Source of the DNA: Phaeospirillum sp.
GTDB taxonomy: Bacteria; Pseudomonadota; Alphaproteobacteria; Rhodospirillales; Magnetospirillaceae
Length of the DNA stretch: 64,000 nt
Direction of reading: 5' to 3'
Assembly: GCA_030651575.1 (NCBI GenBank)
Contig: JAUSFB010000032.1
Span: 210,001-274,000, forward strand
Shown: one piece after another, positions 2,053 to 61,045 of the stretch
Position numbering within the stretch: the stretch's first letter is position 1
Layout of the letters: each line of letters begins with the position of its first letter
Notes under the pieces: model-generated
The model's input: the letters and a program-made list of their open reading frames with translations, nothing else
What the model was told of the DNA's origin: nothing
Databases searched by the model: none
Translations under genes and position numbers: made by a program

Positions 2053-5000
2053 ATGCCGAGCCACGCCGATTTCATCCATCTCCGCGTCCACACCGCCTAT
2101 TCCTTGGCGGAAGGGGCCATCAAACTCAAAGAGCTGATCAAGCTGTGCGAGAAGGCGGCCATGCCGGCGGTGGGAATCGCCGATACCGGCAATCTGTTCG
2201 GAGCCCTGGAGTTCTCGGTCTCTTGCGCCGATGCCGGAATACAGCCCATCGTCGGCTGTCAGGTCGCGATCCGGCGCGAGGACGGCCCACCTTCCAAGGA
2301 CGGCCGGCGGCCGGAGCCGGATTCCCTGGTGCTGCTGTGCCAAAACGAAGCCGGCTACCTCAACCTGCTCAAGCTGGTGTCCAAGGCCTTCCTGGAGACC
2401 GATGCCGGCGAAACGCCGCAGATCACGCTGCACGACATCGAGACCCGCTCGGACGGTCTGATCGTGTTGACCGGCGGCCCGGCGGGACCGGTGGGACGAT
2501 TGCTGGCGGACGGGCAGGCGGATAAGGCCGAAATCGTGCTGATCCGGTTGGCCCAGGCCTTCGCCGGGCGGACCTATGTGGAGTTGATGCGCCACCAGTT
2601 GGAGGTCGAGGACCGGATCGAGCCGGCGCTGATCGATCTGGCCTACAAGCACGACCTGCCGCTGGTCGCCACCAACGAGCCGTTCTTCGCCGACCGGGGC
2701 ATGTACGAAGCCCACGACGCTCTGATCTGCATCGCGTCCGGCTCTTACGTCTCCCAGGACGAGCGCCGCCGCCTGACGCCAGAGCATTATTTCAAATCCC
2801 CGGCCGAGATGCGCGAGTTGTTCGCCGACCTGCCGGAGGCCTGCGACAACACCCTGGTGATCGCCCGGCGCTGCGCCTATATGGCGGCCAAGCGCAAACC
2901 GATTCTGCCGCCGTTCCGCATGGACGGTCTGACAGAGGCCGAAGTGCTGCGCAAGATGACCCTGGAGGGGCTGGAAAAGCGGCTGTGGAAGCATATCTTC
3001 AAGCCCGGCATGACCGATGACGAGCGCGAACACGCCGCCAAGCCTTATCGCGAACGGATCGATTTCGAGCTGAACGTCATCGAGCAGATGGGCTTTCCCG
3101 GCTACTTTCTGATCGTGTCCGACTTCATCCAGTGGTCCAAGTCCCACGATATTCCGGTGGGACCGGGCCGTGGTTCGGGCGCCGGGTCCGCGGTGGCCTG
3201 GGCGCTGACCATCACCGATCTCGACCCGTTGCGCTGGGGGCTGCTATTCGAGCGCTTCCTTAATCCCGAACGCGTCTCCATGCCCGACTTCGATATCGAC
3301 TTTTGTCAGGACCGCCGGGAAGAGACCATCCGCTATGTTCAAGACCGCTATGGCTACGGCCAGGTGGCGCAGATCATCACCTTCGGAAAGCTTCAGGCCC
3401 GCGCGGTGTTGCGCGATGTCGGCCGCGTATTGCAGATGCCCTACGGTCAGGTCGACCGCTTGTGCAAGATGGTGCCCAACAATCCGGCCAAGCCGACGAC
3501 GCTGGAGCAGGCGCTGGAGACAGAGCCGCTGCTGAAGGAGATGAAGGAGCGCGACGAAGCGGTCAGTCATCTCCTCGATCTGGCCATGAAACTGGAGGGC
3601 CTCTACCGCCACGCCTCGACCCATGCCGCCGGCGTGGTGATCGGCGACCGGCCGCTGGACGAGTTGGTTCCGCTGTACCGCGATCCGCGCTCGGACATGC
3701 CGGTGACCCAGTTCAACATGAAGTGGGTCGAGCCAGCCGGTCTGGTGAAGTTCGACTTCCTCGGCCTCAAGACCCTGACGGTGATGATCACCGCCGTCAA
3801 ACTCATCAAGAAGATCAAGGGGATCGACATCGACCTGTCGGCCATTCCCCTGGACGACACCAAATCCTACGAGCTGCTGTCGCGCGGCGATGCCGCCGGG
3901 GTGTTCCAGTTGGAAAGCTCGGGCATGCGCGACGTGCTGCGCAAGATGGGACCCAACCGGCTGGAGGATCTGATCGCGGTGGTGGCCTTGTACCGCCCCG
4001 GTCCCATGGACCAGATCCCGCGCTACATCGCCTGTAAACACGGCAAGGAAGAGCCGGATTACATGCATCCGCTGCTGGAACCGATCCTGAAGGAGACCTT
4101 CGGGATCATGGTCTATCAGGAGCAGGTGATGCAGATCGCCCAGGTGCTGTCCGGCTATAGCCTGGGCGGCGCCGACCTGTTGCGCCGCGCCATGGGCAAG
4201 AAGGACAAGGACGAGATGGATCGTCAGCGCAAGTCCTTCGTCGATGGCTCTGTGGCGCGTGGCGTCGATGGCGAGCAGGCCTCCATGATCTTCGACAAGG
4301 TGGCCAAGTTCGCCGAATACGGCTTCAACAAGTCGCACGCCGCCGCCTACGCCTTGATCGCCTATCAGACAGCATGGTTGAAGGCCAATCATCCCGCCGA
4401 GTTCATGGCCGCCACCATGACCTATGAAAAGGGCAATACCGACAAGCTGAATTCCTTCCGCCAGGAGCTGGACCGGCTGGGAATCAAGCTGTTGCCGCCC
4501 GATATCAATGCGTCCAGACCCGAATTCACAGTAGAGGTGCTGCCCGATGGCGCCCATTCCGTGCGTTACGCCCTGGCGGCGCTGAAGAATGTGGGTGAGG
4601 CAGCCATGACATCACTGGTCGAGGAGCGGGAACGGGGCGGACGCTTCAAGGATATGGGCGACTTCGCCGCCCGCATGGACGCGCGCGTGCTTAACCGCCG
4701 TCAGTTGGAAAACATGATCAAGGCCGGCGTATTCGATTCGGTGGATAAGAATCGGGGGCGGCTGTTCAAGAATGCCGACACGGTTACCCGTTATGCCGCT
4801 CAGGCGGCCGGAGATCGCGCCTCCAGCCAGCTGAGTTTGCTGGGCGGCTCCAACGCGCCGACCCTAAAGCTGGAAAACGCCCCCGATTGGTCGCCGCACG
4901 AGAAGCTTAACCACGAATTCGATGCCGTGGGTTTTTACCTGTCGGCCCACCCGCTTGACGCTTACGCCAAGAGCATGAAGCGGCTCAATGTCCTGAAAAT

Positions 5001-5523
5001 TGCGGAACTGCCGCGCCATCTTCAGGCCGGCGGCAAGGGAAGGGTGAAACTGGCCGGGTCACTGATGTCCAAGCAGGAACGGGTATCGGCCAAGGGCTCA
5101 CGCTACGCCTTCTTGCAATTCTCGGATGCCTCGGGGATGTTCGAGGTGACTTGCTTTTCCGAAATTCTGGCGGTGTCGCGGGACTTGCTCGATGCCGGCG
5201 GGCCGCTGCTGATCACCGTGGACGCCAAGCTGGAGGAAGAGCAACTGCGCCTGACCTGCCAGCACATCGCTTCGCTGGATCAAGAAGCCGCCAAGGCCGC
5301 CGCCGGAATCCGGGTTATCATCGAGTCCGACAGCCCGATCCAAGATCTACATGGTTTGATCAGCGGGGAGGCGAGGGGGCGCAATCGTATCGCCATCGTC
5401 GCCCGGATCGGCGGGCGCGAGGTCGAGTTGGGCCTGGGCCAGAAAAACGCCATCGCCATCACCCCGAAATTCATGAGCGCCCTGCGCTCGATTCCCGGCA
5501 TCGCCGAGGTCGAGGAGATTTAG
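2053..5523 (+). CDS. dnaE: DNA polymerase III alpha subunit
   Basis: Replicative polymerase catalytic subunit. The 1156 residues match the usual DnaE1 length. The N-terminal PHP domain starts with FIHLRVHTAYSL (residues 7-18). The palm carries the catalytic motif PDFDIDFCQDRRE at about 411-423 and the upstream glycine-rich GPGRGSGAGSAV. GRYFRHASTHAAGV-type fingers motifs are present, here as LYRHASTHAAGVVIG. A C-terminal OB fold begins near residue 995 (GRVKLAGSLMSKQ). A clear Shine-Dalgarno is not obvious before the ATG at 2053. It lies 58 bases after lolD in the same direction, so it may share its transcript. The 3' end abuts an AT-rich foreign-looking gene on the other strand. Confidence 0.97.
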   Translation: MPSHADFIHLRVHTAYSLAEGAIKLKELIKLCEKAAMPAVGIADTGNLFGALEFSVSCADAGIQPIVGCQVAIRREDGPPSKDGRRPEPDSLVLLCQNEAGYLNLLKLVSKAFLETDAGETPQITLHDIETRSDGLIVLTGGPAGPVGRLLADGQADKAEIVLIRLAQAFAGRTYVELMRHQLEVEDRIEPALIDLAYKHDLPLVATNEPFFADRGMYEAHDALICIASGSYVSQDERRRLTPEHYFKSPAEMRELFADLPEACDNTLVIARRCAYMAAKRKPILPPFRMDGLTEAEVLRKMTLEGLEKRLWKHIFKPGMTDDEREHAAKPYRERIDFELNVIEQMGFPGYFLIVSDFIQWSKSHDIPVGPGRGSGAGSAVAWALTITDLDPLRWGLLFERFLNPERVSMPDFDIDFCQDRREETIRYVQDRYGYGQVAQIITFGKLQARAVLRDVGRVLQMPYGQVDRLCKMVPNNPAKPTTLEQALETEPLLKEMKERDEAVSHLLDLAMKLEGLYRHASTHAAGVVIGDRPLDELVPLYRDPRSDMPVTQFNMKWVEPAGLVKFDFLGLKTLTVMITAVKLIKKIKGIDIDLSAIPLDDTKSYELLSRGDAAGVFQLESSGMRDVLRKMGPNRLEDLIAVVALYRPGPMDQIPRYIACKHGKEEPDYMHPLLEPILKETFGIMVYQEQVMQIAQVLSGYSLGGADLLRRAMGKKDKDEMDRQRKSFVDGSVARGVDGEQASMIFDKVAKFAEYGFNKSHAAAYALIAYQTAWLKANHPAEFMAATMTYEKGNTDKLNSFRQELDRLGIKLLPPDINASRPEFTVEVLPDGAHSVRYALAALKNVGEAAMTSLVEERERGGRFKDMGDFAARMDARVLNRRQLENMIKAGVFDSVDKNRGRLFKNADTVTRYAAQAAGDRASSQLSLLGGSNAPTLKLENAPDWSPHEKLNHEFDAVGFYLSAHPLDAYAKSMKRLNVLKIAELPRHLQAGGKGRVKLAGSLMSKQERVSAKGSRYAFLQFSDASGMFEVTCFSEILAVSRDLLDAGGPLLITVDAKLEEEQLRLTCQHIASLDQEAAKAAAGIRVIIESDSPIQDLHGLISGEARGRNRIAIVARIGGREVELGLGQKNAIAITPKFMSALRSIPGIAEVEEI

Positions 5524-5524
5524 C

Positions 5525-5537
5525 CCTCGTCGCGAGG
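5525..5537 (+). terminator. Short hairpin after dnaE
   Basis: A perfect 5-bp stem, CCTCG-TCG-CGAGG, begins two bases after the dnaE stop. No T-run follows directly, so it is at best a weak or Rho-assisted terminator between the convergent dnaE and methyltransferase-like genes. Confidence 0.25.
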
Positions 5538-5560
5538 TGAGCCAATTTAGAAGCGCGTTC

Positions 5561-6406
5561 TTAATGCATATTCCTCGCAACAATCACCGATCCAATAGTT
5601 CCGGCATCGTCCAGCGATCCGCAGATATCGGAAATAATCAGATCAACATCAATGAGACATGATTTCTGCGCCGCGATTAACTTTGAAAAGAAATCAGTAT
5701 TAAACTTCTGTTCAGAAACAACCCTTCGAACAAGTGACTGTAGATCCGTGTTTTCCGGCTGGATCTGAAACCCAATGGGCTCACAAAACACACACGTCAC
5801 CGCACCCTCGATGGAACTGATCGATTCAAAAAAACTAAATGGAAACGGTTGGACAAACATCGCTGACCACGATGTAAACATTAGTATATTGCTGAATTCA
5901 GAAATGTGAGAAAAATCAGGATTATTAAAATCAAATGGTACGGATGCAATGTTCATTGCTGGCTCAAGCTTTGAAAGCCTGTTGCACATATCCCTACCAG
6001 AAGTCGTTGGCTCCGCAGCGATGTACCTTGCTTCAGATGGGCCTCCATTCAGATATATATCAAATAATTGCTTTCCATATCCAGATCCAAGCTCGATTAT
6101 ACAATCTCTATTTTTTGAGAAGTCGGCAAGCATCAAAGACATTGAAAAATTATGGTATTTAGATAGCACAATCTCCTTGCCAAAGCTGATTGAATGAACT
6201 CGCTTCATTAAGCTGTCGATGGCATCATCAGTAACACTAGAAAGTTCATTGCCTTCATCTGCTTTATTGCCACTTGCCGCCGCCTCAAACAGGCGCAGAG
6301 CCCTGTGCAGATTTTTTTCTTCATTAAGTATCTTATCAAATAACAGCGCCCTTGATGCCCAGCTTTTCTCATAAAAACTGATCCACGCATCGTCTGCATC
6401 TTCCAT
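5561..6406 (-). CDS. AT-rich orphan gene, SAM-methyltransferase-like fold
   Basis: This 281-residue protein has one recognisable element, a Rossmann motif I-like segment CIIELGSGYGKQ at residues 102-113, followed about 25 residues later by the acidic AAEPTTSGRD. Together they suggest a class I SAM-dependent methyltransferase. Substrate is unknown. No secretion signal or membrane segment is seen. I place the start at the ATG at 6404-6406 because GGCGGGGGGATAAA, a strong ribosome site, precedes it. A longer frame up to 6541 exists but runs into GC-rich, unrelated-looking sequence. The gene is strikingly AT-rich compared with every neighbour, sits next to a decayed regulator fragment and 480 bases from a tRNA-Ser, and is probably horizontally acquired. 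Confidence 0.55.
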   Translation of the reverse strand: MEDADDAWISFYEKSWASRALLFDKILNEEKNLHRALRLFEAAASGNKADEGNELSSVTDDAIDSLMKRVHSISFGKEIVLSKYHNFSMSLMLADFSKNRDCIIELGSGYGKQLFDIYLNGGPSEARYIAAEPTTSGRDMCNRLSKLEPAMNIASVPFDFNNPDFSHISEFSNILMFTSWSAMFVQPFPFSFFESISSIEGAVTCVFCEPIGFQIQPENTDLQSLVRRVVSEQKFNTDFFSKLIAAQKSCLIDVDLIISDICGSLDDAGTIGSVIVARNMH

Positions 6407-6670
6407 TTTATCCCCCCGCCCTGAAAGCCTCATGATTTGATGCATGAAGGAGGCGGTGAAGGCAAGCAACAGCAGCCGGATGGGGGCGGCCGGCACGGAT
6501 AAATCAGCATCAAGGATCATCGTTCGGATCATGTTCCCCATTCGCGGACCAGCACCACCAGGGTGTCTGCCCCGCTGTTCGCCGAATAGGTGGGGTTGAT
6601 CGTCGAAGCGGTCTGGTGATGCTGACAGCGTGGAACTGCATCGATGACGGGTGTTCGGACTGACCCAGGG
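6407..6670. other. Gene-poor segment between orphan gene and regulator fragment
   Basis: No convincing intact gene is visible. GC content returns to the chromosomal level here. On the minus strand, one short reading frame ends at 6529 (tail GADTLVVLVREWGT) and overlaps by four bases (ATGA) the ATG at 6532 that opens the upstream extension of the orphan gene. This has the look of two broken coding fragments, but I do not recognise the family. It probably marks decayed sequence at an insertion junction. Confidence 0.35.
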
Positions 6671-6871
6671 AGCCGACAGCTAGTCGATGTGTTGGTGTCC
6701 CGATTGCGGCGAAAATTCTCGGATTCGAATTTCACCGTTCCCATCAAGTCGGTGCGTAATGTCGGCTATGTTCTTCCCAAGCCCGCCACCATGGTCGGCA
6801 GCGCCAAGGAATACGTTGACTCCTGCCCCGCAGGAATGAATTGCGGCAAGCTTGCGTCGGAATGGACTTGA
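6671..6871 (+). pseudogene. Remnant of an OmpR-type response regulator (C-terminal winged helix)
   Basis: The frame reads RQLVDVLVSRLRRKF, then VPIKSVRNVGYVLPK. This is the end of the OmpR/PhoB winged-helix DNA-binding domain: recognition helix with V-RLRRK, then the hairpin with R-VGYVL. The receiver domain and the first half of the effector domain are missing, and the frame continues with unrelated residues to a stop at 6871. It is therefore a decayed 3' fragment. It lies beside the AT-rich orphan gene and just before tRNA-Ser, which fits a region disrupted by insertion and deletion. Confidence 0.6.
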
Positions 6872-6888
6872 CGATCTCGTGGCATAAT

Positions 6889-6976
6889 TGGCGGATGGGG
6901 TAGGATTCGAACCCACGGAGGCTTGCGCCCCTCCGGTTTTCAAGACCGGTGCAATAGACCACTCTGCCACCCATCC
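6889..6976 (-). tRNA. tRNA-Ser (anticodon UGA)
   Basis: On the minus strand the acceptor arms GGATGGG and CCCATCC pair over 7 bp, followed by discriminator G and an encoded CCA. The anticodon loop CTTGAAA between CCGGT and ACCGG gives anticodon TGA (serine). A long variable arm (GGAGG-GGCGCAAG-CCTCC) is typical of class II tRNAs, and the T-loop contains GGGTTCGAATCC. The gene borders a disrupted, partly AT-rich region. Its 5' end plus 10 upstream bases recur near 25.7 kb. Confidence 0.97.
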
Positions 6977-7106
6977 CGCCGTATGAATCACTGAACCAAC
7001 ACCGAAGTTCCCGGCGAATGTCCGATGACGTGGCAGATTTACCCCACCATGAACGGCTGTGCAATGGGGCAGGTGGCGTCAGATCGTCTCGCATGTCGCC
7101 AGTCCG

Positions 7107-7247
7107 TCAGGCGTGCCTAGCTTCCAGGGCCTGCTGGACCGCCCGTTCAACCAGGGCCTTGGGGGCGGTGAAGAGTGTGAAGCCGTGGAACGCGAGAATC
7201 ATACTGACCGCGTAGGCGAGGTCGAGAGGAATCGTATTGGTTTGCAT
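7107..7247 (-). CDS. Small hydrophobic protein, unknown function
   Basis: A 46-residue protein, beginning MQTNTIPLDLAYAVSM and with a hydrophobic central stretch (LAYAVSMILAFHGFTLF). It may be a single-pass or peripheral membrane peptide. The ATG at 7245-7247 follows a good ribosome site (GAGGAGAAG, 6 bases away), and a GATAAT -10-like element lies about 50 bases upstream (7294-7299, minus strand). These two signals are the reason for calling it despite its size. I do not recognise the family. It is transcribed away from rsmC. Confidence 0.5.
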   Translation of the reverse strand: MQTNTIPLDLAYAVSMILAFHGFTLFTAPKALVERAVQQALEARHA

Positions 7248-7395
7248 GAGACTTCTCCTCAAGCACACTGGCGAGCTTTCAGCCCATGCGGACATTATCG
7301 CGCAGGATGGTAAAGAAGTGGTTTCCCACCAATATTTAGAATCCCACCGCCCTTGAGTCGACGTTGTCGGCTCGCCATGCTACATCCTGGCCCCC

Positions 7396-8460
7396 ATGAG
7401 CCAATCAGAACACATACGGGCGCTGATCCTGCCTTTCGAAAGGGATCTGCTGCCCCTGCCGGAGCGTTGTTTTCTCATTCGGGCCGAGGCCTCCGAGGTG
7501 TTGGACCACGAGTGGCGCGCCCGGCTGGTCTGCGAACAAAGCTTCAAGCCAGCGGCCGACCGGCTGCGCAAGGCAGGATTCCAGGTGGTCGACCGCCTGA
7601 CCGGCGAGTTTCCCGCCGGGTTGTGTCTGCTGACCAAGCACAAGGCGGAAAATCGGGCCAATATCGCCCGCGCATGGTCCCTGCTGGCGCCCGGCGGTCT
7701 GCTGGTATGCAGCGGCGCCAATGCGTTGGGGGCGGGAAGCATCGAACGGGAGGTCGAGCGCACCTTCAGCCTCGACGGCCATCTGTCCAAGCACCAGGCC
7801 CGGACCTTCTGGCTGACTCGCCCCATCGACGATGCCGCCCCCCCACCGGCCATCCTGACGGATTGGCTGACGGCGGGCGGACCGCAACCGGTGGGGGACA
7901 GCGGCTTTGTCGCCCGTGCCGGCTGCTTCAGCACGGATCACGTCGATACGGGGTCTCGGATTCTGGCGGAGTGCTTCCCCGACGGGATCGCCGGCCGGGT
8001 GGCCGATCTCGGGGCCGGCTGGGGCTATCTTGGTATCCGTCTGCTGGAGCATTTTCCGGCCATCACCGGCTTGGACCTCTTCGAGGCGGAAGCGCTGGCG
8101 CTGGCCGACGCCAAAACCAATGTCGAGACCCTGACGCCGCAAGCCGCCGGACTTGTCCGCTATCACTGGCGCGACGTCTGCGCCGGCCTGCCCGAGGTCT
8201 CGCCTCCCGATGTGCTGCCCTATGACTGGATCATCAGCAATCCGCCTTTCCATGACGGCCGCCGCGCCGACCCGGCCATTGGTCAGGCTTTCATCACCAG
8301 CGCCTGGAAAGCCATTCGCCGTCGGGGCAAGTTCTTGCTGGTCGCCAACCAGAATCTCCCCTACGAGGCGGAATTACGGCGGCGCTTTCGCATTGTCGAA
8401 CAGATCCGGGTGGACGAAGGCTTCAAAGTCTATCTCTCCACAAACCGCCATGATCGGTGA
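7396..8460 (+). CDS. rsmC: 16S rRNA (guanine1207-N2)-methyltransferase-like protein RsmC
   Basis: Two-lobed methyltransferase that modifies 16S rRNA helix 34 in the 30S subunit, by family. The N-terminal half is a degenerate Rossmann lobe. The C-terminal half has motif I VADLGAGWGYLG (about residue 201) and the catalytic/substrate motif ISNPPFHDG (about 279-287), the hallmark of RsmC and other N2-guanine or N6-adenine methyltransferases. Length (354) fits RsmC. It is followed 6 bases later by rsuA, a second 16S rRNA modification gene, which supports the call. RlmG is a related alternative. Confidence 0.85.
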   Translation: MSQSEHIRALILPFERDLLPLPERCFLIRAEASEVLDHEWRARLVCEQSFKPAADRLRKAGFQVVDRLTGEFPAGLCLLTKHKAENRANIARAWSLLAPGGLLVCSGANALGAGSIEREVERTFSLDGHLSKHQARTFWLTRPIDDAAPPPAILTDWLTAGGPQPVGDSGFVARAGCFSTDHVDTGSRILAECFPDGIAGRVADLGAGWGYLGIRLLEHFPAITGLDLFEAEALALADAKTNVETLTPQAAGLVRYHWRDVCAGLPEVSPPDVLPYDWIISNPPFHDGRRADPAIGQAFITSAWKAIRRRGKFLLVANQNLPYEAELRRRFRIVEQIRVDEGFKVYLSTNRHDR

Positions 8461-54482: not shown

Positions 54483-54611
54483 AGGGCATCAATACCAATG
54501 CGCGGTGATTTTCATAAAAACCTCCCATTTGGATCTTTGACATGATACTTAGGTAGTAGATTTGGGGGCTGTGAAGAAGCCATCGGCAATGTGCAAGCGG
54601 ATAAAAACGTG

Positions 54612-56363
54612 ATGTCGGACAGCCTCCCCCCTCCATCGTCCTCGCGCAAGGCGGCCTTGGCGCTCATGGCAGCCATGCTCGCCCTGTCCGTCTGGCACGG
54701 ATTCAATACCAGGAAGATCGCGGACAAGACCGCCGAGGCCATGGTGCTGGCCCTGACCCGCACCATGGAATACCAGATCGACGCTTCATTCCACGGCATC
54801 GACACCCTGCTTCAGGAAGCCGTACAGCGGATCGACGCCGCCGAATGGCCCAATCCCCCCCAGTTGCAATGGCTTCAAACGCGGCTGGCTGACTTTCCGG
54901 AAGCACGCAATCTGCTGGTGGTTGGCCCCGACGGCAAAAGCGCGGGACCGGGCATATCGGCCATCGGGATGATTGGCCCCTCCCTCGACGTTTCCGACCG
55001 TCAGCATTTTCGCTTTCACCGCGAGCATCCGAACAGCAACCGCTTGATCATCGGCGACCCCATCGTCGACCGCCTGGACGGGCGTCAGATCATTCCCCTA
55101 TCACGAGCCTTGGTCGATTCGACGGGACGGTTCAAGGGGATGGTCGCGGTTGGAATAGATCCGACCTTCATGATCAAGGCGATGGAAAGTCTCCAGATCG
55201 AGGATGCCGGCGGCATCTCGGTCATTCGTGATGACGGCGTCTTTCTGGCGCGCCTTCCCGACCAATACGGATCGTTCGGACGCTCGGTCGCCACCAGCCC
55301 GCTTTTTCAGCACTTCCTTCCCCGCTCCCCGTTCGGAATCGCCCGATTTGTTTCAGTGGCCGATGGCAATGACAAGGTCGTCGGCTATCGCACCCTGGAG
55401 CGTTATCCGGTGGTCGTCACCGTCGGCATGACCGGAAAGACCGCCCTAGCCCCCTTCTGGAACGAAGTAATCTGGATCGGCATTACCGTATTCGTTCTTT
55501 CCTTGGCCCTATACCGGCTGGCCGCCCTGTCGGACCTGCGGGAGCACTCCCGCGCCATCCTGGCCGCCCGCCTGGAAAAACAAAGTCAGGCACTGGAGTT
55601 GCAAGTCGCCGAGCGGACTCGGAATCTGGAAATGGCCAAGTCCGAGAGTGAGCATCGCGCCCGCCAGTTGGCCGCCTCCAATGCCGACCTTGAACACTTC
55701 GCCTATGTGGCGTCCCATGACCTGCAAGAGCCGCTGCGCACCGTGACCAGCTTCGTGCAACTGCTGAAGCATCGCTACGAGAACAGCCTGGACGCGGAGG
55801 CCAGGGACTACATCGGTTTCGCGGTCAATGGCGCCAAGCGCATGCACAACCTGATCTTGGACCTGCTGGCCTATTCACGGGTCAGCACCCAGGGCGGCGC
55901 GTTCACCACTTGCGACCTGTCCCATGCCATGGCGGAAGCCACCGGCGACCTGGAACTCGCCATCGCCGAGACCGGGGCGGTCGTGACCGTCGGCGCCATG
56001 CCGGTGCTGGAATGCGACCAAAGCCAGATGGTCAGCCTGTTTGAAAATCTGATCGGAAACTCGATCAAGTATCGCCAGCCGGGCGTTCCTCCGGTTATCT
56101 CCGTAGAAACCCGGCAGGAGGGGGGCGAGTGGATCTTCTGCGTGCGTGACAACGGCATCGGCATCGATCCCCAGTACCAGGACCGCATTTTCATCATCTT
56201 CCAGCGCCTGCACATCCCCGGCGCTTTTGACGGTACGGGAATCGGACTGGCCATCTGCAAGCGCATCGTCGAACGCCACGGCGGTCGGATCTGGATGGAA
56301 TCGGAACCGGGAAAAGGCGCGGCCTTCTTCTTCACCCTACCGTCCATAAGATTTGGGGTCTGA
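54612..56363 (+). CDS. Cache-type membrane sensor histidine kinase, 3' end altered by insertion
   Basis: 583 residues from the ATG at 54612 (GTG at 54591 also possible). Helix 1 near residues 12-32 (ALALMAAMLALSVWHGF), a periplasmic double-Cache-like sensor to about 285 (SLDVSDRQHFRFHREHPNSN, GGISVIRDDGVFLARLPDQY), helix 2, then DHp with His369 in VASHDLQEPLRTVTSF and an ATPase domain (NLIGNSIKYR, DNGIGID, DGTGIGLAICKRIVERHGG). The frame ends SIRFGV, and the last codons and stop (TGA 56361-56363) lie inside the left inverted repeat of the Tn3-type element. Without the insertion the frame would continue RFQQPASR and stop. All catalytic motifs are upstream, so the kinase is probably still active. 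Confidence 0.85.
   Translation: MSDSLPPPSSSRKAALALMAAMLALSVWHGFNTRKIADKTAEAMVLALTRTMEYQIDASFHGIDTLLQEAVQRIDAAEWPNPPQLQWLQTRLADFPEARNLLVVGPDGKSAGPGISAIGMIGPSLDVSDRQHFRFHREHPNSNRLIIGDPIVDRLDGRQIIPLSRALVDSTGRFKGMVAVGIDPTFMIKAMESLQIEDAGGISVIRDDGVFLARLPDQYGSFGRSVATSPLFQHFLPRSPFGIARFVSVADGNDKVVGYRTLERYPVVVTVGMTGKTALAPFWNEVIWIGITVFVLSLALYRLAALSDLREHSRAILAARLEKQSQALELQVAERTRNLEMAKSESEHRARQLAASNADLEHFAYVASHDLQEPLRTVTSFVQLLKHRYENSLDAEARDYIGFAVNGAKRMHNLILDLLAYSRVSTQGGAFTTCDLSHAMAEATGDLELAIAETGAVVTVGAMPVLECDQSQMVSLFENLIGNSIKYRQPGVPPVISVETRQEGGEWIFCVRDNGIGIDPQYQDRIFIIFQRLHIPGAFDGTGIGLAICKRIVERHGGRIWMESEPGKGAAFFFTLPSIRFGV
56350..56354 (+). repeat. 5-bp target-site duplication, left copy (GATTT)
   Basis: GATTT directly precedes the left inverted repeat; the same five bases directly follow the right one (58631-58635). 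Five-base duplications are the rule for Tn3-family transposition. Confidence 0.9.
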
Positions 56364-56390
56364 GTAGCAACGGAACAGAAAACCGACATA
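56355..56390 (+). repeat. Left terminal inverted repeat (Tn3 type)
   Basis: 36 bases starting GGGGTCTGAGTAGCAACG. Provides the last two codons and the TGA stop of the upstream histidine kinase. Pairs with 58595-58630 with a single mismatch. Confidence 0.92.
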
Positions 56391-56438
56391 GGGGCCAGCC
56401 GAGGCATCAAGCCATTTCGTCAGAGGGGTCGGCGGCCC

Positions 56439-56519
56439 CGCGTAACGGCCGAGCATGTTGATGTGTTCGTGACCGAGCGGCGACATTTGTCTGACGGCCC
56501 TTTTGGCATGGCGCGACAG
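56439..56519 (-). pseudogene. TnpA (Tn3-family transposase) C-terminal fragment
   Basis: The minus strand reads LSRHAKRAVRQ followed by MSPLGHEHINMLGRYA, which resembles the end of Tn3-family transposases (LSPLGWEHINLLGRY). The fragment points toward the left inverted repeat, as intact tnpA genes do. Everything upstream of it has been lost and replaced by the chemoreceptor gene, 18 bases away. No in-frame stop follows the conserved part. Confidence 0.65.
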
Positions 56520-56537
56520 TGGACATTGGCAAGAGGA

Positions 56538-58226
56538 TCAGCTCACCTTGACCGCAGCCAGGAAGCTGCGTACAGCGTCGTCCAGCGATCGGCTGTGCGA
56601 CAGCAGATCCCGCGCCGCGGCGGAAACCCCCTCGGCCGTCTGGCCGGTCTCACCCGCTGCCCGTGCAACTCCTGCGATATTGGTGGACACCTCGCGGGTG
56701 CCGAGGGAGGCCTGCTCTACGTTGCGGGCGATTTCCGCCGTGGCGGCGCCCTGCTGTTCCACCGCTCCGGCAATGCCGCTAGCGAATTCGTTGATGCGGG
56801 CGATGATCTCGGAGATACCGCTGATGGCGTCGACGGCGGCCTTAGTCTCGGCCTGCACTGTGTTGATTTGTTCGGCGATGTCGCCGGTGGCCCGTGCCGT
56901 CTGGCCCGCCAGATGCTTGACCTCGTTGGCAACCACGGCGAAGCCCTTGCCGGCCTCACCTGCACGGGCCGCCTCAATGGTGGCGTTCAAGGCCAGCAGG
57001 TTGGTCTGCGACGCGATGTCGTTGATGAGGCCGAGAACTTGGCCGATCTTATCCACCGATGCAGTCAGGCTGGTGATCTTGGTATTGGCGTCCACCGCCT
57101 GGTTGGCGGCAGCCAGGGCCACCTGTGATGAATCGTGAACCTGACGTGAGATTTCGTGGATGGAGGCGCTCAGTTCGCTGCCAGCTGAGGCCACCGTTTC
57201 AACGTTGTCGGTGGCCCGTTCGGTGGCGGCCGCGACCATGGCGCTTTGCCGTTCGGTTTGCGCGGCATTAGCCGACAGGGTGCCGGCCGAGACGTTCAAC
57301 CGCTCGACCGAGGCCTTCATACCGCCCATGACCGTCATAATGGTGGCCTCGAATTGATGGGTCGCCGTCTCCATGCGGCTGGCGCGGAGCTCGCGGCGGG
57401 CAATTACATCACGCTCGGTCTGCTCGCGGTGAAGTTCCTCAATCAGGGTCTTGCGCCAGTTCTCGAGGGCATGGGCTAGGGGGGCAAGTTCATCATCGCG
57501 ATTGGTATCGGGAATCGCGGTGGCGGTCTCGCCCCGGCTCAGGGCCTGTACCACGCTGGACAGACGGCCGATCGGTGCGATGACCGAACGCGATACTCCC
57601 AGCGCCACCACCAACGCCCCCATCGTCGCCAGCGCCGAAATCAGAAGGACCACCAGCTTGTAGCGGCCCTCGTTGGCATCGGCCTGCTGTTCCGCCACCT
57701 TGGAGAGGGCATCGGACGCGGTGACCACTCCGTCAATGGCAGCGCGATGGGTCTCGTATAGCGCGCTCATCTCCTTGAACGCCGCCTCGGCGGAGGCGCG
57801 ATCGCCCTTTGTCAGCGCCGGAAAATAGCGACCCTTGGCCACCTCGAAGAACGTCACCGCCGGCCGGTAGGAAGTGACCAGCAGCCCGTTAGCCACGCTG
57901 GCGTCCAGCCCCTGGCCCTGCCAGAACACATGGCGTTCGTCAAAATCCTTCTTGAGAGTGTCGAGGCGCTTCTCCAGAACCGCAAGCTGCGCCGAGCTGG
58001 CATTCAGGGCCTGCGACGTCACCAGATAGGATTCTAAGATGTATTCGGGCGGCGGCAGTATGTCAGCCACCAGATCCTTCACCTGGACGATGCGGGCATA
58101 GACTGGGCCGTTGACCTTCAACTGATTGAAGGCGATCCACCATCCGGCCACCACACCGCCGATGGCGATGGTGGTCACTAGCGCCAACGCCAGCATCTTG
58201 CCTTTGATGCTCATCAGTCCACTCAT
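56538..58226 (-). CDS. Methyl-accepting chemotaxis protein (cargo of the Tn3-type element)
   Basis: 562 residues. Membrane helix 1 at about 11-33 ([19 protein letters not shown]), a mostly helical periplasmic domain of about 150 residues, helix 2 near 190-212 ([20 protein letters not shown]), HAMP, then a signalling coiled coil whose tip holds [20 protein letters not shown], the CheA/CheW-binding hairpin. There is no C-terminal CheR/CheB pentapeptide. The ATG at 58226 follows GAGGACGAG; a second ATG lies four codons inside. The ligand is unknown. It is the only intact gene in the element, whose ends lie 183 bases past its stop and 369 bases before its start. Confidence 0.92.
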
Positions 58227-58594
58227 TGGCTCGTCCTCAAGAAATTGCTGCTCTGCAAGATATTGCAAATTGTTGAACGAATTTGTAGAACCAAGTGAAC
58301 GGAATTTGATCAAAACTTAAACACGTAACCCGACACTTCCCAGATAGACTCTCTATCCGTCCCTGATTGACGCAAGAGTAGTCAAGCTCCAGCCCTGCTG
58401 GGAGACGAATTGGTGTCTGTCGCTGCATGACCGTCGCTTCGAGCGCCGCGCTTGCTCTGACAGCGCGTTTCCAAGCACTTTGGACAGATCCCGAGGCAGG
58501 TTCTCGACGTTGGCGTTATCTGCAAATGACCGGATCTGGCACACAAGAGCCATAGCGGACGTTCCCCCGAGTGGCCGCTATCGGTTCCCTCGCT
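58227..58594. other. Interior of the Tn3-type element upstream of the receptor gene
   Basis: 368 bases without a convincing gene. The first 90 bases before the receptor are AT-rich and probably hold its promoter, so the cargo travels with its own control region. The remainder may derive from the lost tnpR/res part of the parent transposon, but no res-type subsites could be recognised by eye. Confidence 0.5.
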
Positions 58595-58630
58595 TATGTC
58601 GGTTTTCTGTTCCGCTGCTACTCAGACCCC
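58595..58630 (-). repeat. Right terminal inverted repeat (Tn3 type)
   Basis: Complement of 56355-56390 with one mismatch (C at 58615 versus the T expected), ending in GACCCC at 58630. Confidence 0.92.
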
Positions 58631-58635
58631 GATTT
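58631..58635 (+). repeat. 5-bp target-site duplication, right copy (GATTT)
   Basis: Same five bases as 56350-56354. Joining the flanks through one copy restores a continuous histidine kinase reading frame that ends eight codons further on. Confidence 0.9.
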
Positions 58636-58650
58636 CAACAGCCCGCGTCC

Positions 58651-58669
58651 CGATGATCAGGACTCATCG
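58651..58669. terminator. Hairpin between the element and parC
   Basis: CGATGA-TCAGGAC-TCATCG, a perfect 6-bp stem, followed directly by a second stem (GAGGCG at 58669-58674 with CGCCTC at 58688-58693) that overlaps the parC stop. No T-run is present. In the ancestral arrangement these would separate the convergent histidine kinase and parC genes. Confidence 0.4.
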
Positions 58670-58691
58670 AGGCGTGGTATAGCGCGCCGCC

Positions 58692-60917
58692 TCAGCTGAA
58701 CTTGTTGTTACGGGGAAAGCCGGTGGGCGGCAGCCTGCCGATAGAGGCGCGCTTACCCAGCCAGGGAGTCAGGTCGGCCTCGGTACGAGTCCGCTCTCCC
58801 AGGCTCCAGGTCAGACCATTGGCCAGGGTAAAGACCTTGATGTCGGCAGTGCCGCCATCGCGGTACTTTTGGAGGATGACGCCCCTGCCCCGGCTCATTT
58901 CCGGGATTTCCTCGGCCATGAATACCAGAAGCTTGCGATTGCCGCCCATGATGGCCACGGCGTCGCCCTCGAACGGCAGGCAGAACACCGCCTTCTCGCC
59001 GTCACCCACATTAAGGACCATCTTTCCGGCGCGGGTCTGGGCCAGCACCTCGTTCTCCTCGACCGCGAAGCCGCGCCCCCCATCGCTGGCGAGCAGCAGC
59101 TTGCGGCCGGGCTTGTGGACCATCACGGTAGAGATATCCACATCGTTGGCGAGGTCGATCATCAGGCGCAACGGCTCGCCATGGCCGCGTCCCGACGGCA
59201 ATTTGTCACCACCGATGGTGTAGAAACGGCCATCGGTGGCGAAGATCAGGATCTTGTCGGTGGTCCAGGTCTTCAGGATAAAGCGAAGCTGATCGCCTTC
59301 CTTGAACTTCAGCCCCTCGGGATTGTCGGCATGGCCCTTCAAGGCCCGTATCCAGCCCTTGTCCGACAACACCAAGGTGATGGCTTCGCGCTCCACATAG
59401 GCCTCGATCGGCACCACCACCGCCGAAGGGGCATCGCCCAGCACGGTCCGACGCTTGCCAAGGGCGGTCGCCGCGCCGAACGCCTTTTGCGTCTCGACGA
59501 CCTGGGCGGCGATGGTCAGCCAACGCCGCCCGGTATCGCCCAGCAACGCCTCGATATCGGCCTTCTCCGCCGCCAGCGAGGCGTGCTCGGTCTTGATTTC
59601 CAGCTCTTGCAGCTTGTTGAGGCTGCGCAGCCGCATATTAAGGATGGCCTCGGCCTGAACCTCGCTGAGGTCGAAACGCTTGATCAGGCCGGCCTTGGGC
59701 TCGTCGGTAAAGCGGATGATCCGGATGACCTCGTCGAGATCGGCGAAGACCTTGAGGAAGCCTTCCAGAATCTCCAGGCGTTTGTCGATCTTGTCGAGAC
59801 GGAAGCGCGAACGGCGTTCCAGCACCTCCATGCGGTGATCGAGGAAGGCGCGCAGCACCTCCTTCAGATTCATCACCCGTGGCACGGACTGGGCGTCCAG
59901 CACATTCATGTTGAGCGAGGCCCGCGTCTCCAGATCGGTCTGGCGGAACAGCTGTTCCATCACCAGCTCGGCCTCGACGGTGCGGTTTCGCGGCTCCAGG
60001 ATCAGGCGGATGTCCTCGGCGGATTCGTCCCTGATATCGGCCAGCAGCGGCAGCTTCTTGTCACTCAGAAGTTCGGCGATCTTCTCGACCAGCTTGGACT
60101 TTTGGACCTGATAGGGAATCTCGGTGATGACGATCTGGTAGAGGCCGTGCGACAGCTTTTCCACCGCCCATTTGGCGCGGACCCGAAAGCCGCCCTTGCC
60201 GGTGCGGTACGCTTCGAGGATGGATTCGCGGGTCTCCACCAGCACGCCGCCGGTGGGGAAATCCGGGCCGGGCATACGCTCGATCAACTCATCGATGCCG
60301 CAATCGGGATTGGCGATCAGATGGCCCAGCGCATCGCAGATCTCGCCCAGATTATGGGGCGGAATACTGGTGGCCATACCGACCGCGATGCCGGCCGAGC
60401 CGTTGGCCAGCAGATTGGGGATGGCCGACGGCATCACCACCGGCTCTTCCTCGGTGCCGTCATAGGTGGGGCGGAAATCGACGCTGTCCTCGTCGAGGCC
60501 GTCCATCAGCGCGGCAGCCACCGCCGTCAGCTTGGCCTCGGTGTATCGCATGGCGGCGGCGTTGTCGCCGTCGATATTGCCGAAATTGCCCTGGCCTTCC
60601 ACCAGTGGGTAACGCACAGCAAAGTCCTGGGCAAGGCGCACCAAGGTATCGTAGACCGCCACATCGCCATGGGGATGGTACTTACCGATAACGTCGCCGA
60701 CCACGCGGGCGCACTTCTTGAATCCGCCATCGGGGTCCAGTTTCAGCTGTCGCATGGCGAACAGCAGCCGCCGATGAACCGGCTTTAACCCGTCGCGCAC
60801 ATCGGGCAGCGACCGGGACACGATGGTGGACATGGCATAGGCGAGGTAACGCTCGCCCAAGGCGTCGGCCAGCGGCGTATCGCGGATCTCGCCGATGGCG
60901 ACGACAGGCTTGGTCAT
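58692..60917 (-). CDS. parC: DNA topoisomerase IV subunit A
   Basis: 741 residues. Decatenates daughter chromosomes with ParE. The catalytic tyrosine is Tyr125 in [12 protein letters not shown]. The region [14 protein letters not shown] (81-94) corresponds to the quinolone-resistance-determining region. The position equal to E. coli ParC Ser80 is valine here. The absence of a GyrA-box and the shorter length favour ParC over GyrA, as do [16 protein letters not shown] and the C-terminal blades. The ATG at 60917 follows AGAGGACG; an upstream frame extension is not family-like. Confidence 0.93.
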
Positions 60918-61045
60918 GATCGTCCTCTTATTACAGGCGAGCCACTGAAGTGCCTCACCTTGTTGTCCCTCAAAGCGCCGGGCGGACCGCATCCGTGGTC
61001 CTAGGCTTTCGCCGCATGGGCGGCGCCGGGCCTTGCCCGCAATTC

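Follow-up and report, generated by a model that had tools for sequence, protein, structure and literature searches.

We analysed a stretch of 64,000 nucleotides from a Phaeospirillum genome (assembly GCA_030651575.1, contig JAUSFB010000032.1, positions 210,001 to 274,000 of the forward strand), hereafter the window, in whose numbering positions are given unless a contig or locus is named. Between 56350 and 58635 it contains a compact element that has Tn3-type ends and encloses the gene of a chemoreceptor. The two terminal inverted repeats are 38 bp long and face outward: the left one (56355 to 56392, plus strand) reads GGGGTCTGA... and terminates in TAGG, and the right one (58593 to 58630, minus strand) terminates in TAAG. 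They are identical at 36 of 38 positions over these full Tn3-length ends, and the 36-bp arms within them (56355-56390 and 58595-58630) are complementary at 35 of 36. Directly outside the right repeat stands the pentamer GATTT (58631 to 58635), and an identical copy lies outside the left one (56350 to 56354). Ends of the Tn3 family are inverted repeats of about 38 bp that start with GGGG and finish with TAAG. The repeats found here have this length, and GATTT on both sides is a target-site duplication of the 5-bp (sometimes 6-bp) kind left by the family. Such ends are not expected by chance: a 30-bp end with up to 3 mismatches was found 0 times in 100 dinucleotide-preserving shuffles of the window vs 2 times in the window itself.

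The sole intact gene between the ends (56538 to 58226, minus strand) is an uninterrupted reading frame for a methyl-accepting chemotaxis protein of 562 residues with MCPsignal and HAMP domains. Neither a transposase nor a resolvase is enclosed: tblastn searches with the TnpA and TnpR of L070, a contig bearing the same end, matched nothing between the two repeats except a scrap of tnpA. This remnant of the tnpA 3' end (56440 to 56485, minus strand) measures 46 bp, or 15 residues (SPLGHEHINMLGRYA), and is aligned over 17 residues by the L070 protein (E 3e-6). It is 95.7% identical to the L070 tnpA, whose product matches NF033527, and thereby ties the element to a related transposase of the Tn3 family. 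Relative to L070, approximately 60 bp are gone between the scrap and the left repeat. The original prediction, made from the letters of the window, had described repeats of 36 bp with 35 identities and perfect GATTT duplications, which the alignment of the arms and the flanking letters bear out. It had also announced a 562-residue chemotaxis receptor, which the reading frame and its domains confirm, and a TnpA tail fragment, which is present but very short. Its central claim, a Tn3-derived cassette without transposase and with a chemoreceptor as its only gene, is upheld by the reading frames, the domains, and the tblastn searches. Structurally, the element is a mobile insertion cassette (MIC), i.e., a passenger gene with no transposition enzymes between the ends. 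We give a probability of about 0.6 to the reading that it is a MIC of the Tn3 family, with two full-length ends, one passenger, and no transposition genes.

The ends of the cassette belong to a group that is found in other genomes. We searched the exact 30-bp end in genome_contigs, with one genome per species, and obtained 37 stretches, 28 of which are placed in Alphaproteobacteria by their titles. Two facing ends occur in 11 of the 37; eight of these enclose tnpA-like sequence and three do not. Perfect 5-bp duplications flank three of the tnpA-bearing elements: L036 (3795 bp, TCATC), L042 (3883 bp, AACGT), and L046 (4341 bp, TGTGA). Among the remaining five, four have no duplication and one runs off its contig (hence 3 perfect out of 7 testable). 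The right end of the cassette is identical at 38 of 38 positions to the single ends at L070 and L063. The L070 contig, in which only one end is present, encodes a resolvase and a TnpA of around 1000 residues (NF033527, E 5e-301) that is about 59% identical to the transposases of ISPsy39 and ISXc4. The cassette and the elements L036, L042, L046, and L070 have the same 30-bp end, and these four have tnpA at one end; they differ from the cassette in carrying transposition genes (tnpA- and tnpR-like sequence) and in lacking a chemoreceptor match. A cognate autonomous transposon is thus likely to exist elsewhere, as represented by L070 and, with related ends on both sides, by L036, L042, and L046.

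The three two-ended stretches without tnpA are short and carry other genes. The element L041 of Rhizobium sp. CFBP 8762 (935 bp, positions 2893-3827 of the locus) encodes a GNAT acetyltransferase and has no direct repeat. In Azospirillum melinis, L056 (774 bp, 3819-4592) encodes a glyoxalase-type protein between TATCTC repeats, and in Hansschlegelia plantiphila, L068 (891 bp, 5241-6131) encodes a short-chain dehydrogenase between TTGTCG repeats; the direct repeats of both are perfect and measure 6 bp, not 5. The end was also matched in 119 plasmid records, five of which were opened. One of them, a plasmid of Mesorhizobium sp. B1-1-8 (L172), holds an element of 2123 bp (6001-8123) with VOC and YafY-family genes, a direct repeat conserved at 4 of 5 positions, and, at one end, a tnpA tail of about 160 codons that is 77% identical to the L070 TnpA. 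This is the layout of the chemoreceptor cassette with a longer tnpA tail, and for this reason the element looks like an intermediate. The original prediction had proposed a search for further copies of the end around different cargo or for a full Tn3-type transposon with matching ends; other cargo was found in L041, L056, L068, and L172, and tnpA-like sequence in eight of the 11 two-ended stretches. No match to the receptor was found in the 37 end-bearing stretches, and no viral contig contained the exact 30-bp end (0 stretches). Close to the host, such ends are rare: with up to 3 mismatches over 36 bp, they occur in 1 of the 17 genomes of the genus (the one studied here) and in 3 of 385 sampled genomes of the class, again including this one.

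The contig carries a second element of the end group at a distance of 115 kb (C71:140049-151380; L033 3049-14380). It is 11.3 kb long, its ends are identical at 37 of 38 positions and somewhat different from those of the cassette, and it is flanked by TACAC duplications. Its cargo includes a rhodanese/ArsR protein, a TauE exporter, an MFS protein, and a class-V aminotransferase, and it also encodes a serine recombinase. Its TnpA is the only match to PF01526 in the genome. This domain was matched in 5 of the 17 genomes of the genus, including this one, and the proteins of the other four are about 30% identical to the L070 TnpA. We rejected the 11.3-kb element as a present source of transposase because its TnpA lacks residues ~169-586 of the L070 protein; the 3' end of its tnpA also resembles the scrap less (83% identity vs 96% for L070). 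The assembly yielded no intact cognate transposase, and the cassette is therefore probably immobile now, unless an intact transposase arrives. A plasmid absent from the assembly could hold one. The original prediction had taken the near-identical ends as a sign of recent movement, which these data do not show: the cassette is single-copy, the one Tn3 transposase detected in its own genome is internally deleted, and the identity of short ends is no measure of an insertion's age.

In the Tn3 family, TnpA provided in trans would be expected to work on both ends and to generate a 5-bp duplication. We infer that the cassette was transposed in this manner: a related transposon elsewhere would supply TnpA, which would bind the two ends of the cassette and join them to the target, leaving the duplication. 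The structure of the element and the other compact elements of the end group support this mechanism. The cassette would have entered from another species of the genus. Because the receptor is complete and comes with its own upstream arm, the incoming copy could be expressed, and its product may then join the receptor arrays of the host.

Several observations weigh against this reading. The cassette is present in a single copy in one genome, and its transposition as a unit is undocumented. The only Tn3-type transposase detected in its own genome has an internal deletion of some 418 residues, and the further loss of about 60 bp beside the tnpA scrap is a sign of age. Not every member of the group has direct repeats: they are absent from L041, imperfect (4/5) in L172, and perfect in only 3 of the 7 testable tnpA-bearing stretches. 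Part of this evidence also fits a remnant formed in place, in which a complete Tn3-family transposon with the gene content of Tn1722 (tnpA, tnpR, res, mcp) inserted at the locus and then lost tnpR, res, and nearly all of tnpA, so that the cassette never moved as such. This course of events fits all the structural facts, including the single copy, and Tn1722 itself is described, in excerpts of PMC7096625, with these four components between its repeats. The scrap sits where tnpA lies in L070 and is itself next to a deletion, the Mesorhizobium element has a longer tnpA tail in the same place, as an intermediate would, and similar decay is seen in the 11.3-kb element. Movement of a cassette and deletion within a larger transposon are expected to leave the same picture at the locus and cannot be told apart there. 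What argues against deletion in place comes from other genomes: compact elements that share these ends have been found repeatedly in other genera, two of them with perfect direct repeats and no remnant of tnpA, and none of the 37 end-bearing stretches holds a receptor-bearing transposon. We regard the remnant as a possible origin of the element, at clearly less than even odds. It is very improbable, in turn, that the receptor is an old resident of the locus around which the repeats were inserted separately. In relatives, receptors of this group are ordinary genes that lack such ends, and their surroundings are syntenic in four genomes, as an old resident would have it; yet the matching 5-bp duplication directly outside two outward-facing ends marks a single insertion event, and in G008, the relative nearest by ParC (93%), the flanking histidine kinase and parC lie apart, with homology on either side ending close to where the coding regions end.

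The receptor has a predicted helical sensor part, followed by HAMP and the MCP signalling domain. The predicted structure of the sensor part (mean pLDDT 82.5) weakly resembles four-helix ligand domains. A fold search with it returned nothing at E <= 0.001, the best hits being four-helix receptor domains (Vc1313, with Tar and Tsr lower), and we therefore propose no ligand. The sensor part (57567-58226) contains a striking motif of 13 residues that is invariant or nearly so across 14 aligned sequences, and has no match to a Pfam ligand domain. Upstream of the receptor, an arm of 366 bp with lower G+C (58227 to 58592) reaches to the right repeat; the two arms of the cassette align with each other over the 36-bp repeat only. 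A promoter scan of the 366-bp arm gave 0 sigma-70-like promoters and Rfam gave no match. The arm includes two dispersed repeats with approximate limits, A (58326 to 58413) and B (58524 to 58589), both with matches in several genomes of the genus and the family. One or the other is matched in 16 of 54 other genomes of the family, of which 8 are among the 16 other genomes of the genus (E <= 0.001), and no second copy was found in the own genome at E <= 0.1. In several cases the copies in other genomes lie close to contig ends, and eight open reading frames adjoining such copies have no transposase domain.

The sensor part of the receptor is present in 28 of the 55 genomes of the family, including the own genome, where it occurs within the cassette only and a search for a further receptor copy found none. 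We inferred a first receptor tree from 29 of the 36 sensor matches of other genomes plus the cassette; a second tree and an approximately unbiased (AU) test used 18 of these 30 sequences. The cassette copy falls in a well-supported clade made up of nine receptors, which come from 9 of the 17 genomes of the genus; in this clade it is sister to the copy of G001 (support 100/99), with which it shares 70% identity. G008 has no member of this clade. At six receptor loci of relatives we found no Tn3-type ends (best 16-18 mismatches of 38), and the genes that neighbour the receptor in G001 and G009 are scattered over several contigs in the own genome, with no receptor copy that would mark an original chromosomal locus. 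Between the cassette and G001 receptors, dN is 0.22 and dS is 1.09 (NG86), which indicates that purifying selection acted during their shared history, whether before capture or after it. The receptor tree, the lack of the receptor in G008, and the repeats of the arm suggest that another species of the genus or family was the source of the captured DNA, and the receptor tree points to a transfer within the genus.

It is unlikely, in our view, that the receptor was inherited vertically within the genus and captured by a transposon from the chromosome of its own host, an origin compatible both with a cassette and with a remnant formed in place. The presence of the receptor clade in 9 of the 17 genomes would agree with it, as would the third-position G+C of the receptor (0.778), compared with that of the flanking histidine kinase (0.771), parC (0.819), and recG (0.820). 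There is, however, no second receptor copy and no other copy of the arm repeats in the own genome, and the AU test rejects the grouping expected from the ParC tree, in which G001 is held with the G009 group (p 0.003, a value that flatters because the grouping was named after the first tree had been seen). The argument for transfer is further weakened by its dependence on one ParC tree, with a support of 0.86 at the relevant node, by hidden paralogy, which could mimic the signal, and by the arm repeats, which are also present in other genera of the family.

Chemoreceptors have reportedly been known on the Tn3-family transposons Tn1722 and Tn1721 since work by Allmeier and colleagues in 1992. 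Hence a chemoreceptor on such a transposon is not new. Cassettes of the kind described here are also known, which limits the surprise. According to excerpts of two papers (PMC5756416, PMC7096625), Tn1722 is made up of repeats together with tnpA, tnpR, res, and mcp, and the original prediction was wrong in taking a chemoreceptor on a Tn3-type element as undescribed. In these accounts, Tn1722 resembles the cassette in that it belongs to the Tn3 family and carries, in addition to its transposition genes, a methyl-accepting chemotaxis protein as passenger, and it differs in keeping tnpA, tnpR, and res, which the cassette lacks. On plasmids, an end that starts with GGGGGAACCGCAGAATTCGG... lies close behind the receptor match in 4 of 4 regions fetched, about 150 bp past the annotated receptor stop in the three that have an annotated gene. 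We take this end to be of Tn21 type, and the plasmid receptor to be the gene of Tn1721, an identity that is unconfirmed by alignment to X61367. With this assumption, the plasmid receptor is 42% identical to that of the cassette, and this only within a part of the signalling domain (~120 residues), which places the two in different receptor families. Its 3' end points to the outer repeat whereas that of the cassette receptor points to the tnpA side, and the Tn21-type ends differ from the ends of the cassette, which on the same assumption are not those of Tn1722/Tn1721. Because the receptors share only a part of the signalling domain, and the ends and the orientation differ, the two kinds of chemoreceptors were probably acquired independently.

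The concept of MIC is said to go back to MIC231, from Chen and colleagues in 1999. Such cassettes are known in the Tn3 family, e.g., in Xanthomonas (PMC6304161, in the excerpts available), where long Tn3-family repeats surround passengers without transposition enzymes and the cognate transposase acts in trans, as proposed here; our cassette has another end group, a chemoreceptor as cargo, and a single copy. Excerpts on the elements called TIME and TIME-COMP (PMC4133298, PMC13367494) describe them as equally non-autonomous, with Tn3-type ends and 5- or 6-bp duplications. In these excerpts TIMEs have about 260 bp and a TIME-COMP has a TIME at each end, whereas single repeats bound the cargo of the cassette and its arms are alike over the 36-bp repeat only. 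Among the titles and abstract openings listed by searches of open-access PMC papers, we found no Tn3-type cassette with a chemoreceptor as its sole gene.

On a broader and more tentative reading, which we would not put at even odds, the end group is a recurrent gene-capture system, mainly of Alphaproteobacteria. It would consist of 0.8-2.3-kb cassettes that lack transposition genes and differ in the gene they carry (a chemoreceptor, an acetyltransferase, a glyoxalase-type protein, a dehydrogenase), with transposons that share their ends acting on them in trans, and it would have carried a chemoreceptor from one species to another within a genus, independently of the chemoreceptor of Tn1722. 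If this is true, Tn3-type elements have mobilised sensory specificity on two or more occasions. Related bacteria vary widely in their sets of chemoreceptors, and to our knowledge the travel of single chemoreceptors is little documented. An intact receptor as the only gene of a cassette, beside the case of Tn1722, makes the spread of sensory genes by Tn3 ends testable. Together, the four other compact elements that share these ends offer a small natural collection in which to study how genes enter between the ends of a transposon.

The cassette lies between a histidine kinase gene (54591 to 56363, plus strand; dCache_1_like, HisKA, and HATPase_c domains) and the gene of topoisomerase IV subunit A (parC; 58692 to 60992, minus strand). 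The insertion is in the extreme 3' end of the former, whose last two codons and stop are formed by the left repeat, and is thus not strictly intergenic. We compared the joined 300-bp flanks with the loci of relatives, none of which is conspecific, and found both flanks together at none. In G008, homology to the left flank ends near 56346 and homology to the right flank begins near the end of parC. The histidine kinase and parC genes, neighbours in the window (54591-60992), are about 14.5 kb apart in G008 (L093). A rearrangement or deletion that presumably predates the insertion altered their distance in one of the lineages.

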